DNA of 32,443 nt, taken from contig JACRBX010000282.1 in NCBI GenBank assembly GCA_016219225.1, positions 1 to 32,443 of the forward strand, read 5' to 3'. Numbering within the stretch: position 1 is the first letter of the stretch; every line of letters begins with the position of its first letter. Position numbers and translations under genes: made by a program. The notes under the pieces are model-generated. The model saw only the letters and a program-made list of their open reading frames with translations. It was not told the origin of the DNA and made no database searches. This document shows, one piece after another, positions 25,653 to 32,203 of this stretch. This DNA comes from Deltaproteobacteria bacterium. GTDB lineage: Bacteria > Desulfobacterota > RBG-13-43-22.

Positions 25653-26312
25653 ATGAAATACATTGCGCCATCAATACTATCATCGGATTTCGGCCGGCTG
25701 AAAGAGGAGGTCCAGGCCGTTGAAGCGGCCGGGGCCGATTATATCCATATCGATGTCATGGACGGCCATTTTGTGCCCAATATTACCATCGGCCCGGTGG
25801 TGGTAGAGGCCGTGCGTAAGATAACCAAACTTCCGTTGGATGTCCATCTGATGATTGAAAACCCGGATAGCTATATTCCGGACTTTGCCAAGGCCGGGGC
25901 GGATATCCTCTCCGTTCACTTCGAGGTTTGCCCCCACCTCCATCGCACAGTCTCCCTGATCCGGGAACATTCGGTTAAACCGGCGGTGGTTTTAAATCCT
26001 TCCACCCCGGTGGCCTTCCTGGATGATATTCTGGGGGACTTGGACTGGGTCTTGATCATGAGTGTCAATCCCGGATTCGGGGGGCAGAAATTTATTCCGG
26101 GTGCGGTGAACAAGATTATAAGTCTTAAAGAGATGATTGACCAGCGGGGGTTGGAGGTCGAAATCGAAGTCGACGGCGGAATCACCCCGAACAACGTGGC
26201 CCAGGTCTGCCAAGCCGGTGCCGATATCATCGTGGCCGGTTCGGCCATCTATCACACGCCGGATTACAAGAAAACCATCGATTTGTTTAGAAAAGAGATG
26301 GAGGGGTGCTGA
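25653..26312 (+). CDS. rpe: ribulose-phosphate 3-epimerase
   Basis: 219 residues from the ATG at 25653; the near-perfect extended Shine-Dalgarno GAGGTGAT (25644-25651) lies directly before it. The enzyme interconverts ribulose-5-phosphate and xylulose-5-phosphate. Metal and catalytic motifs of the TIM barrel are complete: SILSSDF (7-13), H32-I-D34-VMDGHFVPN, VHLMIENP (64-71), [12 protein letters not shown] (136-147) and EVDGGI (172-177). The 3' part from codon 125 has a second diverged copy 1049 bp downstream, suggesting that this locus has been an integration or recombination target. Confidence 0.96.
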
Positions 26313-26383
26313 AGAATTGATCTGATAGTTGATCAAATTATTAAACATCCAGGTGAGATTTTCCAATTTTACTGGAGCATAAA

Positions 26384-26644
26384 ATGCCCGAAATAAGTCG
26401 ATTTTATGGTATTATTATAGCTATGTTTTTCGATGACCATAATCCGCCCCATTTTCATGCTCGTTATGGTGGGGAAAAGATAGCAATAGAAATAGATTCT
26501 TTCCGTGTTTTGGAAGGAGGAATTCCTCCACGTGCTTTGGGTCTCGTGATTGAATGGGCCTCTCAGCACAAAAAAGAACTCCTGGATAATTGGGAATTGG
26601 CGAAAAACAATCATGTTCCCGCAAAGATTGAGCCATTGAAATAA
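26384..26644 (+). CDS. DUF4160 domain protein
   Basis: 86 residues. The N-terminal signature MPEISRFYGIIIAMFFDDHN followed by PPHFHARYGG is the hallmark of DUF4160 (conserved PPHxHAxYG). The paired histidines H26 and H28-type residues suggest a metal or nucleic-acid site. Biochemistry is unknown; members are usually next to a DUF2442 gene, and the pair has been regarded as toxin-antitoxin-like. The next gene begins 12 bp later, after an AAGGAGG site. Codon use is AT-richer than in rpe, consistent with transfer. Confidence 0.85.
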   Translation: MPEISRFYGIIIAMFFDDHNPPHFHARYGGEKIAIEIDSFRVLEGGIPPRALGLVIEWASQHKKELLDNWELAKNNHVPAKIEPLK

Positions 26645-26656
26645 GGAGGTAACGAT

Positions 26657-26968
26657 ATGCTTAAAGACGTAATCTCGGCCAGTTATAAGGACGGATATAA
26701 AATTGAAGTGACATTCGAGGATGGTGCTTCGGGAATTGTTGATTTTTCAAAATATTTGTCAAAAGGTGGTGTATTCGAAAAATTCAAGGATATTGAATTT
26801 TTCGAAAATTTCAAAATTAACGACGAGCTTGGAGTGCTTACATGGGGAGATGAAATAGATATTGCGCCAGAAACACTTTATGCTGAAGCAACGGGTTCTC
26901 CTTTACCCAACTGGACGGATCTCCGGGAAGTTCCTTCGACGAGCATGTCGCTTCAGCCGGCCTCGTAA
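26657..26968 (+). CDS. DUF2442 domain protein
   Basis: 103 residues. The pattern VTFEDGASGIVDFSKYL, GGVFEKFKDIEFFENFKIN and LGVLTWGDEIDIAPETLYAEA is the full DUF2442 fold (a small beta-rich protein). Function unproven; it is the usual partner of DUF4160. AAGGAGG at 26644-26650 lies 6 nt before the ATG. The tail after residue ~88 (DLREVPSTSMSLQPAS) is not conserved and may come from the junction. The pair lies between the intact rpe and a truncated rpe copy. Confidence 0.85.
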   Translation: MLKDVISASYKDGYKIEVTFEDGASGIVDFSKYLSKGGVFEKFKDIEFFENFKINDELGVLTWGDEIDIAPETLYAEATGSPLPNWTDLREVPSTSMSLQPAS

Positions 26969-27073: not shown

Positions 27074-27361
27074 GATATTCTGGGGGACGTTGACTGGGTC
27101 CTGATCATGAGCGTCAACCCCGGATTCGGGGGACAGAAATTTATTCCGGGTGCGGTGAACAAGATTATTAGCCATAAAGAGATGATCGAACAACGGGGGT
27201 TGGAGGTCGAAATCGAAGTCGACGGCGGAATCACCCCGAACAACGTGGCCCAGGTCTGCCAAGCCGGAGCCGATATCATCGTGGCCGGTTCGGCCATCTA
27301 CCACACCCCGGATTATAAGAAAACCATTGAGTCGTTTAGAAAAGAGATGGAGGGGTGCTGA
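27074..27361 (+). pseudogene. rpe: truncated second copy of the rpe 3' end
   Basis: These 288 bp align without gaps to the last 288 bp of rpe (26025-26312), starting at codon 125 (GAT ATT CTG) and ending at the same TGA. I count 19 base differences affecting 18 codons; 13 of those codon changes are silent and 5 change the residue (such as L130V, L158H, D162E). It lacks the N-terminal 124 residues and so cannot be an active epimerase. The excess of silent changes means the copy diverged while under selection, in another lineage, rather than by decay in place. Confidence 0.9.
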
Positions 27362-27424
27362 AGGGATTAAGCCGGCGGCGATCAAAGTTTTATACATCTC
27401 GTTCAACCTGATTGGTGGTCGTCT

Positions 27425-27459: not shown

Positions 27460-27579
27460 GTACGTTGGCTCGACAACGAATTAAGTGACCTGTGTCATGT
27501 CCAGGCCAACGCCTCGGCACCGTCGTCACACTATCCCAAATTAGCAAAGGGTCCGAAGAATAATGAATCCATTAAATAG
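27448..27579 (+). CDS. 43-residue small ORF overlapping the start of the GHKL gene
   Basis: ATG at 27448 has GGAGAAGG (27432-27439) 8 nt upstream, a better ribosome site than that of the following large gene. It encodes 43 residues beginning MLNLVRWLDNELSDL and stops at TAG 27577-27579, 17 bp inside the large gene in another frame. The first 15 residues could form an amphipathic helix. It could be a coupling leader or a small antitoxin-like or regulatory peptide; no family is recognised. Confidence 0.4.
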   Translation: MLNLVRWLDNELSDLCHVQANASAPSSHYPKLAKGPKNNESIK

Positions 27580-30112
27580 AGATTTGTTCGAGATTGCTGG
27601 GAGCACAACTGACCAGATTGATGTCAAGATCAGTCACCGGATAATTCAGTTATTCTCTGAAGGTCTATACTCCAGCCCCAACAAAGCTGTAGAAGAACTT
27701 GTCTCCAATTCGTTTGATGCTGGCGCACAGAACGTCCACATCATCCTTTCTCCAGACCTGCGTGAAGCAAACGCAACCATCGTCGTCATTGACGATGGAG
27801 AGGGAATGAATAATGAAGGCCTCAAGAAGCATTGGATCATTGGCGAAAGTACAAGACGTAGAGTATCTTCCAGGAGAAAACCCATTGGGAAATTCGGCAT
27901 TGGCAAGTTGTCCACATATGTATTGGCTTCGAAACTCACTCACATCAGTAAGTTCGGTAACATTTACTATGCCGCAACAATGGATTATACGAATCTTACT
28001 GGTAGCGCTGAAAATGCCTCTAAGGGAGTTTTCGACGAGCAGACGATCCAAATACCCTTAAGGATACTTACGAAACAACAAGCGCAGGATGCGGTGCGGC
28101 CATGGACAAATGGAACCAAGGAAGGATATAAAGCGTTTCGCCTATTTGGTAAAAATGCGCCTTCATCTTGGACTGTTGCCATTATGTCCGGTCTCAAGGA
28201 AATGGGAAAGAAGATAAGTATCGGTCGTCTCAATTGGGTCTTGCGAACTGCCATGCCACAGCGCGGCGACTTCCATCTCTTTCTTGATGGGGATCCAATC
28301 ACTCCTCCCGAAACAGATGAGCCCTTGGCGAAACTGGTAATAGGCAAAGACGTGATCCAAATGCCAAAGCCCTGTCCTGAAGGTCTCATTGCGCGAGAGG
28401 ACACAAGCCAGTCAGGTGATTCTGTTTATCGATATGGCGTTTATCATGATAGATTATTAGGGCGAATCACGGGTTACATCGAAATATTCAAGGATGAAAT
28501 TGATGCGGGAAAGCCGAAATTCGAACAGAGCCACGGTTTTTTCGTTTATGTACATGGAAGACAGGTTAATGTAGACGATTTGGGATTCGGTATAGAACGT
28601 AATCTGCTTCGACACGGCACCTTCTCAAAGTTCCGGATGGTTGTCCACATTGACAGTTTGGATGAGGCGCTAAGGTCCTCCCGTGAATCTTTCCAACAAG
28701 GCGACCTACACCAAGAGGCTCAGAACTTTCTCCGGGCCTGCTTCAATCTTGCTCGCAACAAACTCGTTGAATATGAGCGTTCGCAAACTCCTGCTGCCCT
28801 GATCTCTGCACGCATCTCATCTGCGCCGGGAAGCATGACTCGAAAGCCGTTATTGTCGCTCGCTCAAATGGTTGCGGAGAAGAGGGCTACTCCTTTCTAT
28901 CTACGTTTTCCGTCCGGACTCTCCGCTACGGCACAGACCGAGTTCTTAGAGGAGCTGAAACAAAAAGCTGAAGAAGCCGATGGCTTGCTTCGTAGCACGG
29001 AATTGAGCGTTTTAGATTCGAAAGAGGGTTTGGCGATCCTTGATGTTCAGCAAGGCAAGTTGCTCATCAATACTTCTCATCCTTTTGTAGCTGCGTTTCA
29101 GGAGTTTTTCACCGATTCCCGAAGAAATCTTCCTCTCGAGATGTTGGCAATGTCGGAAATTCTTATGGAGGCCCATTTGTATCATATGGGTTTAGACGAG
29201 TCGGTGATTCGTGATGCAATCGGTAGACGCGATGAATTGTTGAGACAGTTCGTTAGATCTTCCGCACGTCGAACAGCTGGAATGATCGCACTTGCCCTTA
29301 CCGATGCCCGAAACGATGATAATAAACTGGAAGAGGAAATGCGTGCCGCTTTTGAGGCGATGGGATTCGCCAATGTAATTCGCATTGGTGGAAGCGGCAA
29401 ACCTGATGGCACTGCTGAGGCTCATCTTGCAGCGGCGGAAGACGGTAGAGCTCAACGATACAAAGTGGGCCTTGAGGCGAAGAGCGGTCAGCCTGTTTCT
29501 GCTCATCGCTTAAATGTGTCAGGAATCGCGAGACACATGCAAGATTACAATTGCAACCACCACTTAGTGATCGGCAACGGCTTTGCTACCTCCACCGGTG
29601 AGGATTCCGCTTCAGTACGAGAGATCAAGGATCTCATGAAAAATTCTGGTAAAACTATAACGCTGATGCATATTGATGACTTGGCGCGGTTGATTAGGAT
29701 TGCATCGGCAAAACGTGTTGGAGGTCTCAGCCGTCTTCGTGATCTCTTTAGGAGATGCGTGACTCCAGAGGAGAGCAAGGTGTGGGTGGATAACCTTGCG
29801 GCTGAAACGCCTGCAAATTGGCCGTACATGGAGATTTTGGAAACCGTTTGGCATTTGGCTGAAGAGCAGCCTAATGAAGTGGTGGAGTATGCTGCTGTAA
29901 TCACAGAACTCCGACATCGTACACCACCTGTAAGAATGAACAAACCGGATCTAATTGAGTGCTGCAAAGCTATGCAGGTCATGGCACGCGGCGTTGTATT
30001 CGCTCGAGAAAATACGGTAGAAATCGACCGGCGCCCGGACTTAATCCTGGAGGATATCAGGGCCGCAGTTGGCGAGTACCCCGAAGAGGAAAGAAGAACA
30101 ATTCACATATGA
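27563..30112 (+). CDS. GHKL (MORC/Hsp90-like) ATPase fused to a PD-(D/E)XK nuclease
   Basis: 849 residues. The N-terminal Bergerat ATP-binding fold shows the N-box E45-x3-N49 (ELVSNSFDAGA), G1 box DDGEGM (77-82) and G2 box GKFGIGKLS (109-117), the combination seen in MORC, MutL and Hsp90 proteins rather than histidine kinases. A second transducer-like domain follows to about 420 (FVYVHGRQVN, ESFQQGDLHQ). Near 598-670 there is a restriction-endonuclease-like domain: P614-D615, then E638-A-K640, followed by a helix with ARHMQDY. About 200 helical residues follow. Its stop overlaps the methyltransferase start by ATGA. I infer an ATP-gated DNA nuclease protected against by the methyltransferase. 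No signal or membrane segment. Confidence 0.8.
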   Translation: MNPLNRDLFEIAGSTTDQIDVKISHRIIQLFSEGLYSSPNKAVEELVSNSFDAGAQNVHIILSPDLREANATIVVIDDGEGMNNEGLKKHWIIGESTRRRVSSRRKPIGKFGIGKLSTYVLASKLTHISKFGNIYYAATMDYTNLTGSAENASKGVFDEQTIQIPLRILTKQQAQDAVRPWTNGTKEGYKAFRLFGKNAPSSWTVAIMSGLKEMGKKISIGRLNWVLRTAMPQRGDFHLFLDGDPITPPETDEPLAKLVIGKDVIQMPKPCPEGLIAREDTSQSGDSVYRYGVYHDRLLGRITGYIEIFKDEIDAGKPKFEQSHGFFVYVHGRQVNVDDLGFGIERNLLRHGTFSKFRMVVHIDSLDEALRSSRESFQQGDLHQEAQNFLRACFNLARNKLVEYERSQTPAALISARISSAPGSMTRKPLLSLAQMVAEKRATPFYLRFPSGLSATAQTEFLEELKQKAEEADGLLRSTELSVLDSKEGLAILDVQQGKLLINTSHPFVAAFQEFFTDSRRNLPLEMLAMSEILMEAHLYHMGLDESVIRDAIGRRDELLRQFVRSSARRTAGMIALALTDARNDDNKLEEEMRAAFEAMGFANVIRIGGSGKPDGTAEAHLAAAEDGRAQRYKVGLEAKSGQPVSAHRLNVSGIARHMQDYNCNHHLVIGNGFATSTGEDSASVREIKDLMKNSGKTITLMHIDDLARLIRIASAKRVGGLSRLRDLFRRCVTPEESKVWVDNLAAETPANWPYMEILETVWHLAEEQPNEVVEYAAVITELRHRTPPVRMNKPDLIECCKAMQVMARGVVFARENTVEIDRRPDLILEDIRAAVGEYPEEERRTIHI

Positions 30113-31326
30113 TATCAGCCACACAAAAAGCCCATATTCGCCCTGTTCATCCGTTTCCGGCTCGGATGGCGCCTTCGATTGTTTGGGACGCCCTTCCCAA
30201 GACAGACGATTCTTTGAATATCCTCGACCCTATGTCTGGTTCGGGTACAACATTGGTCTGCGCGAGGTCGATAGGGCATCGCGCCATTGGCTGCGATACC
30301 GACCCGCTTGCGCTTCTCATTGCGCGTGCGTGGTGCTCCAATGCTGAACCAGAAACTCTAAAGGTCCGGGCGGGGATTGTTTTGGAACGAGCAAGAACTC
30401 TAAGCAGAAGACTGATTTCTGAGAAATCATATCCGAAAAACACAGACGATGAGACTTGCCGATTTATTGATTTCTGGTTTGATTCTGAAAACCGCCGTGA
30501 ACTAACCGCGCTGGCAACATGCATATCAAGGGTTCAATCGCAAACCGAGAGAACTCTTCTTTGGTGCGCGTTCTCGCGAATGATTATAACCAAGACTACC
30601 GGCGCTTCCCTTGGGATGGATGTCTCTCATAGCCGACCCCATAAAGTCTATGGCGTCGCTCCGGTGAAGCCATTTGAAGCTTATTTCAAGGCTGTCTTAA
30701 CGGTGGCCTGCAATTGCCCTTTTCCAGGCAATGCGAGCAACGCTCCGGCCGCTGACATTCGGCATGGCGATGCCAGGGCATTGCCGATTGAGTCTGCGAG
30801 TGTGGACATGGTGATTACATCTCCTCCCTACCTGAACGCCATCGATTATCTTCGGGGGCACAAGCTGTCCCTCGTATGGATGGGGCACAGCATATCCGTG
30901 ATTCGTGCTATTCGGGCTGGCAACATCGGCTCGGAAGTTTCGGGAGGGTCCGCCTCAAATAAATCAATACAGGAAGCGATGAACGCCATGGCCGATTTTG
31001 AATCATTTGACAATCGACGTCTGGGCATGGTCCGGCGTTATGTCTGGGATATGGGTAAAGTAATGGGGGAATGCGCTCGGGTTCTTAAGCGCGCGGGACG
31101 CGCCGTCTTCGTTGTGGGCGATTCCACCATTAACGGCGTGTTTATTAAAAACTCAGAGGCCTTGATTCGACTTGCCCTTAGCAACCGCCTTTCCCTCGTT
31201 TCGCGCAATACACGTCCAATTGAAACAAAGCGGCGGTATTTGCCTCCTCCCGAATCCGAGAAGGCCGGAGACAATATGAAGGGGCGAATGAGAGAAGAAG
31301 TAATTTTAGAGTTTCGTGCTGATTAA
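30109..31326 (+). CDS. DNA methyltransferase (N4-cytosine/N6-adenine type, TSPPY)
   Basis: 405 residues from the ATG at 30109, which shares ATGA with the upstream gene; a longer frame from 29959 would run deep inside that gene and lacks similarity. The N-terminus has HPFPARMAP (14-22), common in this methylase class; SAM motif I is DPMSGSGTT (40-48), with the acidic CDTDP (62-66) after it, and the catalytic motif IV TSPPY (237-241). TSPPY is usual for N4-cytosine and some N6-adenine enzymes. About 190 residues, mostly helical, separate motifs I and IV and may hold target recognition. It would modify host DNA so that the coupled ATPase-nuclease spares it. Confidence 0.88.
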   Translation: MISATQKAHIRPVHPFPARMAPSIVWDALPKTDDSLNILDPMSGSGTTLVCARSIGHRAIGCDTDPLALLIARAWCSNAEPETLKVRAGIVLERARTLSRRLISEKSYPKNTDDETCRFIDFWFDSENRRELTALATCISRVQSQTERTLLWCAFSRMIITKTTGASLGMDVSHSRPHKVYGVAPVKPFEAYFKAVLTVACNCPFPGNASNAPAADIRHGDARALPIESASVDMVITSPPYLNAIDYLRGHKLSLVWMGHSISVIRAIRAGNIGSEVSGGSASNKSIQEAMNAMADFESFDNRRLGMVRRYVWDMGKVMGECARVLKRAGRAVFVVGDSTINGVFIKNSEALIRLALSNRLSLVSRNTRPIETKRRYLPPPESEKAGDNMKGRMREEVILEFRAD

Positions 31327-31456: not shown

Positions 31457-32203
31457 ATGAATTCAAGAGAACAGAACGAAGAGTTGTCATATAACAAAGA
31501 AGGAATTTCTCCCGTTGAAACCGGCGACTTTGTTGCAATTTTATCTGCATTTTCAGAGCAAATAAAATTTTATGGTGAATTCTTAAGAGATAACGATAGA
31601 AAGAGGGATCAGTTCGTGAGATTTTACTTGTCAATCCTTCTCGCTACTGTTGGGTTTGGACTTTTATCTCTTAATTTAGAAAAAGGTTCTGGGGACAATT
31701 TAATTAGTTTATCCCAAAGGTTATTTGTAATATTTCCAGTGCTATTATCTGTTTCGTTAATCGTTGGTGTTTTAACGTTTAATGTAATTATAAAGTTCAG
31801 AAACCTTCATACCTATTATGTTAAGATGATTAATAGGAATAGGGGTTATTTAGTTAATATTGTAGCTAATAAATTGCCCGATATGGGTTCTCAAATGGCA
31901 GATGCTTGGGATGAACACATTCATGACGATTTTCCAAAGTTTCTTCAAACAAAAGGTCTCGAACATTCAATTGCACGTTTTCATGCGATAATAAATGCTT
32001 TTGTTTTTGGAACAATCGGCTTTCTTACTTCATTTTCGACTATTTCGGAGTTAAGCGTATCTGGGAAGTTTATTTCAGGAATTGTAAAATTCCTAACTTG
32101 GACGATAGTGATATTTATCGTGCATATGTTATGGCAACGCACATCACTAAAAGAACAAGATGATAATTATAAGCCTAAACTTGTAAGAAATCAAATATAT
32201 TGA
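31457..32203 (+). CDS. four-helix membrane protein of unknown family
   Basis: 248 residues. A soluble N-terminus of ~55 residues is followed by hydrophobic segments at about 56-74, 89-112, 174-195 and 205-226, with a ~60-residue charged cytoplasmic-type loop between the two hairpins. The layout resembles small SLATT-like and other membrane proteins that act as effectors or sensors in defence islands, but I find no diagnostic motif. GGAGGG at 31440-31445 is 11 nt before the ATG. The gene is markedly AT-rich compared with everything before it, so it probably has another origin. It is 130 bp from the methyltransferase and preceded by the right flanking repeat. Confidence 0.65.
   Translation: MNSREQNEELSYNKEGISPVETGDFVAILSAFSEQIKFYGEFLRDNDRKRDQFVRFYLSILLATVGFGLLSLNLEKGSGDNLISLSQRLFVIFPVLLSVSLIVGVLTFNVIIKFRNLHTYYVKMINRNRGYLVNIVANKLPDMGSQMADAWDEHIHDDFPKFLQTKGLEHSIARFHAIINAFVFGTIGFLTSFSTISELSVSGKFISGIVKFLTWTIVIFIVHMLWQRTSLKEQDDNYKPKLVRNQIY

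Follow-up and report, generated by a model that had tools for sequence, protein, structure and literature searches.

The locus considered here raises the question whether a GHKL-type ATPase fused to a nuclease, and encoded directly ahead of a DNA methyltransferase, forms a restriction-modification system, and if so of what kind. It lies in Deltaproteobacteria bacterium (GenBank assembly GCA_016219225.1, contig JACRBX010000282.1, positions 1 to 32,443), and by the window we mean the whole stretch of 32,443 nucleotides that was analysed. The initial annotation had described an 849-residue open reading frame and an overlapping methyltransferase frame ending at 31326, both of which are present as described, and had read them as a restriction-modification-like two-gene system, a reading that is supported by an intact nuclease site and by the linkage to a methyltransferase. 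We consider it likely that the pair is a compact ATP-dependent restriction-modification system, in which dimer closure of the MORC/MutL kind would control the cutting of unmodified DNA.

From N- to C-terminus the larger protein consists of a GHKL ATPase, a MORC/Hsp90-like transducer, a HindIII/Mrr-type PD-(D/E)XK nuclease and a helical, winged-helix-like end. Its GHKL motifs are E45..N49, DDGEGM (residues 77-82) and GKFGIGKLS (109-117), and all motif residues named in the initial annotation (E45, N49, D77-DGEGM, G109-KFGIGKLS, D615, E638 and K640, together with DPMSGSGTT and TSPPY in the methyltransferase) were confirmed. These motifs exceed chance, with Pfam matches to HATPase_c_3 on residues 37-154 (5e-21) and Mrr_cat on residues 586-711 (5e-5) of the ATPase-nuclease, and to N6_N4_Mtase in its partner (4.7e-13). 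In an alignment of 67 homologs, on which all conservation counts are based, the catalytic residues are kept: E45 and N49 are present in 66 of 66 sequences, with one gap, and D77, G79, G109, G112, G114 and K115 in all 67. At the nuclease site, E590 is found in 66 of 67 and K640 in every sequence, while position 615 is Asp in 60 and Glu in 7 and position 638 is Glu in 38 and Asp in 29, giving an acidic residue at both positions in 67/67. Invariant, too, is R374 of the transducer (67/67), which may contact phosphate. The consensus of the S5 domain, GFFVxVRGRLI, matches the MORC motif GhXhhpXXRhl except that the polar position is taken by a hydrophobic residue, a comparison read at consensus level. 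In the linker, N503 and H506 are invariant and P507 nearly so; this NxxH(P) motif (residues 503-507) reappears as NRDHP in a MORC-like protein (L002).

The nuclease fold that had been proposed around D615-K640 is indeed predicted. A model of the C-terminal 284 residues reached a predicted local distance difference test score (pLDDT) of 93.6 and a predicted template modelling score (pTM) of 0.88, and Foldseek aligned it with FokI, AspBHI, MspJI, N.BspD6I and HindIII, two FokI chains alone passing an E-value of 0.001. As an independent line, a sequence profile of this C-terminal part matches HindIII (7e-5), the DAK of HindIII aligning with the [ED]AK of the family; Pfam detects Mrr_cat in 16 of 57 members. 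In the full-length model (pLDDT 85.6, pTM 0.51), the N-terminal half resembles the ATPase modules of MORC2/3/4 as well as TRAP1/Hsp90, and by hhalign the GHKL and transducer module, residues 18-409, matches BbrUII-type restriction enzymes (NF050001) with a probability of 99.3. The PADLOC model REase_II matches 52 of 57 members; in the window protein the match is partial and confined to the ATPase domain. At the C-terminal end, helices at 190-203, 211-219 and 229-242 are followed by strands at 247-249 and 253-256 (model numbering), an order from which the last 100 residues may tentatively be taken for a winged helix, and Foldseek returned weak matches to ORC/Cdc6/RuvB structures. In our reading such structures include winged-helix domains, and this part is tentatively a candidate for reading DNA.

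The downstream gene encodes a methyltransferase in which motif I (D40-PMSGSGTT) precedes motif IV (T237-SPPYLNAIDY), and which also matches PADLOC MTase_II (1.3e-27). Its profile matches in the PDB include the cytosine-N4 enzymes 8s9n/8s9m and PvuII, and adenine enzymes match too; judged by these motifs and profiles, the product is probably N4-methylcytosine. There are two possible starts, an ATG at 30109 (405 residues, 4-base ATGA overlap) and a GTG at 29959, given in the open reading frame listing, with a longer protein. Since the homologous loci L029, L033, L038 and L078 likewise have 4-base overlaps, the ATG is the likely true start.

The coupling of the two genes suggests restriction, and the proposed association with methyltransferases in other genomes proved to be strong. 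A methyltransferase lies within three genes of the ATPase-nuclease in 63 of 69 homologs; of the further genes at these loci, 276 in number, 2 are methyltransferases. A motif script, applied identically to the 276 genes, found 61 of these partners, to which we added two recognized by eye or by tblastn, the C5 methyltransferase of L087 and that of L045, which is cut by the contig end. Among the 61, 58 are adjacent (plus or minus one gene), and of these 53 are on the same strand, 51 have a gap of at most 100 bp and 27 overlap. The association is not circular, because the homologs were collected with patterns of the ATPase only. Counting full-length and partial loci, 59 partners form one related group of amino-methyltransferases, mostly with TSPPYLNAIDY or TSPPYVTSYEY. 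The others are beta-type amino enzymes (L015, L104), HLPYW-type enzymes on the opposite strand (L069, L070) and C5 enzymes (L087, L091, L092, L093, L101, L106); among the genes neighbouring L066 no methyltransferase was found. Mapped onto a tree of the ATPases, built by a quick method without bootstrap and with some long branches, the class of the partner changes at least 8 times, or 11 times if its absence is counted as a state, and the position of the partner 11 times. The class thus switches while the partner persists, so that any methyltransferase able to protect the site seems sufficient, as in restriction.

The distribution of the family points in the same direction. The genome scan, which covered a single genome for each GTDB species and of which the best 80 loci were kept, is a sample and not a census. 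In all searches together at least 69 full-length homologs were found, that of the window included, and going by their record titles they belong to Nitrospirota, Planctomycetota, Chloroflexota, Bacteroidota, Bacillota, Actinomycetota, Pseudomonadota, Micrarchaeota, Halobacteria and others. Within the phylum of the window, 2 of 395 genomes matched, its own included, and only its own holds a full-length copy, a single one; the distribution is therefore patchy. Close relatives among the matches listed, 77-82% identical where aligned, carry the labels Nitrospirae, Planctomycetota and Competibacteraceae in their records, which is consistent with recent lateral transfer. A tblastn search of plasmids gave distant matches only, one of which, L004, is a haloarchaeal relative of full length. 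On viral contigs, neither a scan with the single window protein nor a first scan with a two-member alignment returned a relative; stepwise alignment searches then gave two homologs on phage contigs. In one of these (L029), a contig that by reading has a gene for a MuB-like ATPase, the pair is flanked by other phage genes, and in the other (L015) the ATPase-nuclease is paired with an unrelated beta-type methyltransferase. The pair thus recurs across bacteria, archaea and phages. Two plasmid proteins, of Gordonia (L013:4696-6930) and Priestia (L014:3723-5786), match the nuclease and C-terminal part of L004 and carry Mrr_N or winged-helix domains in place of GHKL; the nuclease module is mixed and matched.

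A mechanism can be proposed on this basis. The methyltransferase would mark sites of the host, probably as N4-methylcytosine, and the ATPase-nuclease would act as a homodimer on the plan of MORC, MutL or Hsp90. Upon ATP binding its N-terminal GHKL domains would close and the transducer domains form a cavity round the DNA; closure or hydrolysis would then bring together the two HindIII/Mrr-type nuclease domains, which would cut DNA carrying unmodified sites. Recognition of the site would most likely reside within the ATPase-nuclease, the C-terminal winged-helix-like part being a candidate. The GHKL-transducer module closes upon ATP binding in MORC, MutL and Hsp90, and this is why we read the cutting as ATP-gated, while the restriction logic follows from the linkage of a protecting methyltransferase to a cutting nuclease and from their exchange, whether whole or in part. 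We favour this reading because both active sites are conserved in the 67 homologs, because the nuclease domain is similar to restriction enzymes in both profile and fold and the ATPase module matches BbrUII/HgiDII-type restriction enzymes by profile, because the family is patchily spread and carried by phages, and because a published precedent, VcSduA, needs both activities (PMC12137116). Most likely, then, the pair destroys foreign unmethylated DNA. One could also speculate, though we think it rather unlikely, that the GHKL clamp-nuclease is a constant that is agnostic to its methyltransferase, unrelated protective enzymes being swapped around it, so that methylation status and not a fixed recognition domain would gate the ATPase-driven cut; this would make it a distinct type of restriction.

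Several observations weigh against the proposed restriction mechanism or lend it no strength. The winged helix at the C-terminus is a weak structural match. A deep haloarchaeal clade (L004, L102, L103, L105, L108) lacks an adjacent partner of the classes above; a weak beta-type match lies several kilobases off in L004, L102 and L103, and a gene with an NPPY motif adjoins L105. Decayed pairs, in which a broken ATPase accompanies an intact methyltransferase six times and the reverse is seen twice, fit restriction and prove nothing, since the cases are few and the genes differ twofold in length. What sets the specificity is made ambiguous by two pairs of relatives (L072/L077 and L042/L043), whose ATPase-nucleases are 76% identical and whose methyltransferases are 33% and 41% identical, respectively. 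As the 76% holds along the whole ATPase-nuclease, with none of the regional collapse in identity that is typical of a swapped recognition domain, these pairs would imply either that the two methyltransferases share one site or that the nuclease does not fix the specificity. The latter would suit an arrangement in which the methyltransferase is the specificity subunit and directs an ATPase-nuclease that is itself indifferent to sequence. We regard this as very unlikely, given that the partners belong to unrelated classes, with which conserved protein-protein docking is hard to reconcile, and that the methyltransferases of each pair may have a site in common. Co-variation between residuals of local ATPase identity and those of methyltransferase identity gave no clear signal for a recognition domain.

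The order of domains, GHKL followed by PD-(D/E)XK, is shared with VcSduA, a GHKL-type Shedu protein that defends alone, without a methyltransferase (PMC12137116), and sequences related to the nuclease and the C-terminal part do occur behind other N-termini, as in the Gordonia and Priestia proteins. The pair could therefore be a phage-defence nuclease of this sort, sensing infection or DNA ends, with a methyltransferase that tunes or licenses it and masks no site; the near-constant presence of the methyltransferase, and the absence of DUF4263 among the families of 57 members, 16 of which match Mrr_cat, make this improbable in our view. A GHKL-transducer-nuclease order is likewise that of MutL, and Vsr-like genes, recognized by eye, stand beside the C5-partnered L093 and L106. 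Yet a MutL-like repair system using methylation as a strand mark would fit poorly with a restriction-type nuclease, carriage by phages and a distribution as patchy as that in the phylum of the window, and it seems highly improbable. Finally, the Mrr_cat match and the Foldseek matches to AspBHI and MspJI could suggest a type IV-like enzyme, which like Mrr, MspJI and AspBHI would cut modified DNA. To this we give hardly any credence, because the methyltransferase of the operon would make the DNA of its own host a target.

Table 1. Position of the restriction pair and its parts in the window, with the evidence for each assignment
Feature	Position	Strand	Basis
GHKL ATPase/PD-(D/E)XK nuclease fusion, 849 residues, ATG start	27563..30112	+	Open reading frame, Pfam, 67-sequence alignment, AlphaFold model
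GHKL (Bergerat) ATPase domain and neighbourhood, residues ~18-250	27614..28312	+	Pfam, motif conservation
Transducer/S5-like domain, residues ~251-406	28313..28780	+	Foldseek, profile match
Linker region, residues ~407-565	28781..29257	+	Alignment; secondary structure of full model
PD-(D/E)XK nuclease domain, residues 586-717 (E590, D615, E638, K640)	29318..29713	+	Pfam Mrr_cat, HindIII profile, Foldseek, conservation
C-terminal helical part, its end a winged-helix-like fold, residues 718-849	29714..30109	+	Model secondary structure, weak Foldseek
DNA amino-methyltransferase, 405 residues	30109..31326	+	Pfam, PADLOC, PDB profiles, 59-member co-occurring family
ATGA stop-start overlap of the two genes	30109..30112	+	Sequence

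The pair (Table 1) lies downstream of rpe, the 3' 290 bp of which (26025-26314) are duplicated at 27074-27363 with 93% identity; no further copy of this repeat was found in the genome. A toxin-antitoxin pair stands between the two copies, and the downstream copy separates it from the restriction pair, an arrangement that looks like an insertion scar and suggests an insertion hotspot. The toxin-antitoxin pair (26384-26968) is of the DUF4160/DUF2442 kind and resembles DhiT/DhiA, DhiT scoring 85 bits where the cut-off is 100. Beyond the methyltransferase, a 248-residue protein (31457-32203) has probable membrane helices, as judged by eye, and no confident family match, and the guanine-plus-cytosine content from 31327 to the window end is 33%, compared with 50% for the whole window. 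Among the genes around the homologs are those of type I restriction as well as helicases and integrases, as in defence islands. The initial annotation had noted the lack of a superfamily 2 (SF2) translocase, and none adjoins the window pair, unlike in type I and III restriction, BREX and DISARM, whose core subunits include such a translocase or helicase; for the family this does not hold throughout, as in six relatives (L061, L071, L077, L046, L082, L037) the gene of a Z1-type SF2 helicase is one or two genes away. In the haloarchaeal L102, L103 and L108 an SF2 helicase gene, of a single family in all three, is found close by, and next to it in L102 and L103 is a P-loop gene resembling DndD by eye. 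In Flavobacterium (L067, L084) the nuclease is followed by a second GHKL protein of 741 residues, apparently of a two-component-like kind (PMC8011034), and a gene similar to it stands beside a related methyltransferase in Allorhizobium (L007).

The system would connect restriction with ATP-driven DNA clamps of the MORC/MutL class. That such clamps have a part in prokaryotic restriction was put forward in 2008, and we found little experimental work on it in the literature. It is small, widespread and easily cloned, its conserved residues offer clean mutants, and the natural pairs of similar nucleases with different methyltransferases make the question of specificity directly testable. A literature search for a GHKL-Mrr-methyltransferase system returned nothing specific, and neither PADLOC 2.0.0 nor NCBIfam 20.0 has a model covering the whole window protein, so that automatic annotation would probably miss it.

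How, then, does the pair relate to known systems? Proteins that fuse GHKL ATPases to nucleases of the restriction endonuclease (RE) fold, the paraMORC proteins, were described in restriction operons by Iyer et al. in 2008, who also proposed that they loop DNA at the expense of ATP (PMC2292703). The paraMORC3 plan of GHKL, S5 and a C-terminal RE-fold nuclease with E-D-ExK is also that of the window family, which shares with paraMORC3 the restriction context, the lateral spread, the proposed ATP-driven manipulation of DNA and, in some relatives, neighbouring SF2 helicases. Going by the published description, the two differ in that the paraMORC3 nuclease matched RecB-family proteins and many paraMORC3 members stand alone (PMC2292703), whereas our nuclease is of the HindIII/Mrr kind and almost always comes with a methyltransferase. 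BbrUII and HgiDII (NCBIfam NF050001) have the same GHKL and transducer module and a DNA methyltransferase partner, but theirs is a C5 enzyme and ours an amino-methyltransferase, and the window protein has no alignment to them past residue ~409, another type of nuclease and a longer C-terminus. It scores 62.3 bits on NF050001, over residues 33-154 only, against a cut-off of 550; as a positive control, a phage protein annotated paraMORC3 (L003) scored 751 bits. This protein, a BbrUII-family GHKL enzyme of Escherichia phage PhiR44_1 (L003:3489-6537), is encoded beside a Dcm-type methyltransferase. VcSduA, with its GHKL ATPase followed by a PD-(D/E)XK nuclease, is active in phage defence and needs both activities, as E27A and K557A each abolish defence (PMC12137116); unlike the window pair it is a single gene, with a DUF4263 nuclease. 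Eight Pfam families were found in 57 members at E <= 0.01, and DUF4263 was not among them, so by this test the family is not Shedu. HindIII/Mrr-type nucleases resemble the nuclease domain by profile, by fold and in the aligned DAK, HindIII being without an ATPase part, and the eukaryotic MORC2/3/4, which share the fold of the N-terminal half, are chromatin proteins without a nuclease. The proposal of a distinct, compact system thus holds as regards the family and overstated its novelty, GHKL restriction systems having been described already (PMC2292703, BbrUII/HgiDII, PMC12137116): with a score far below the BbrUII cut-off, no DUF4263 and only partial REase_II matches, we regard this as a distinct family within the known GHKL restriction systems and not a wholly new kind.

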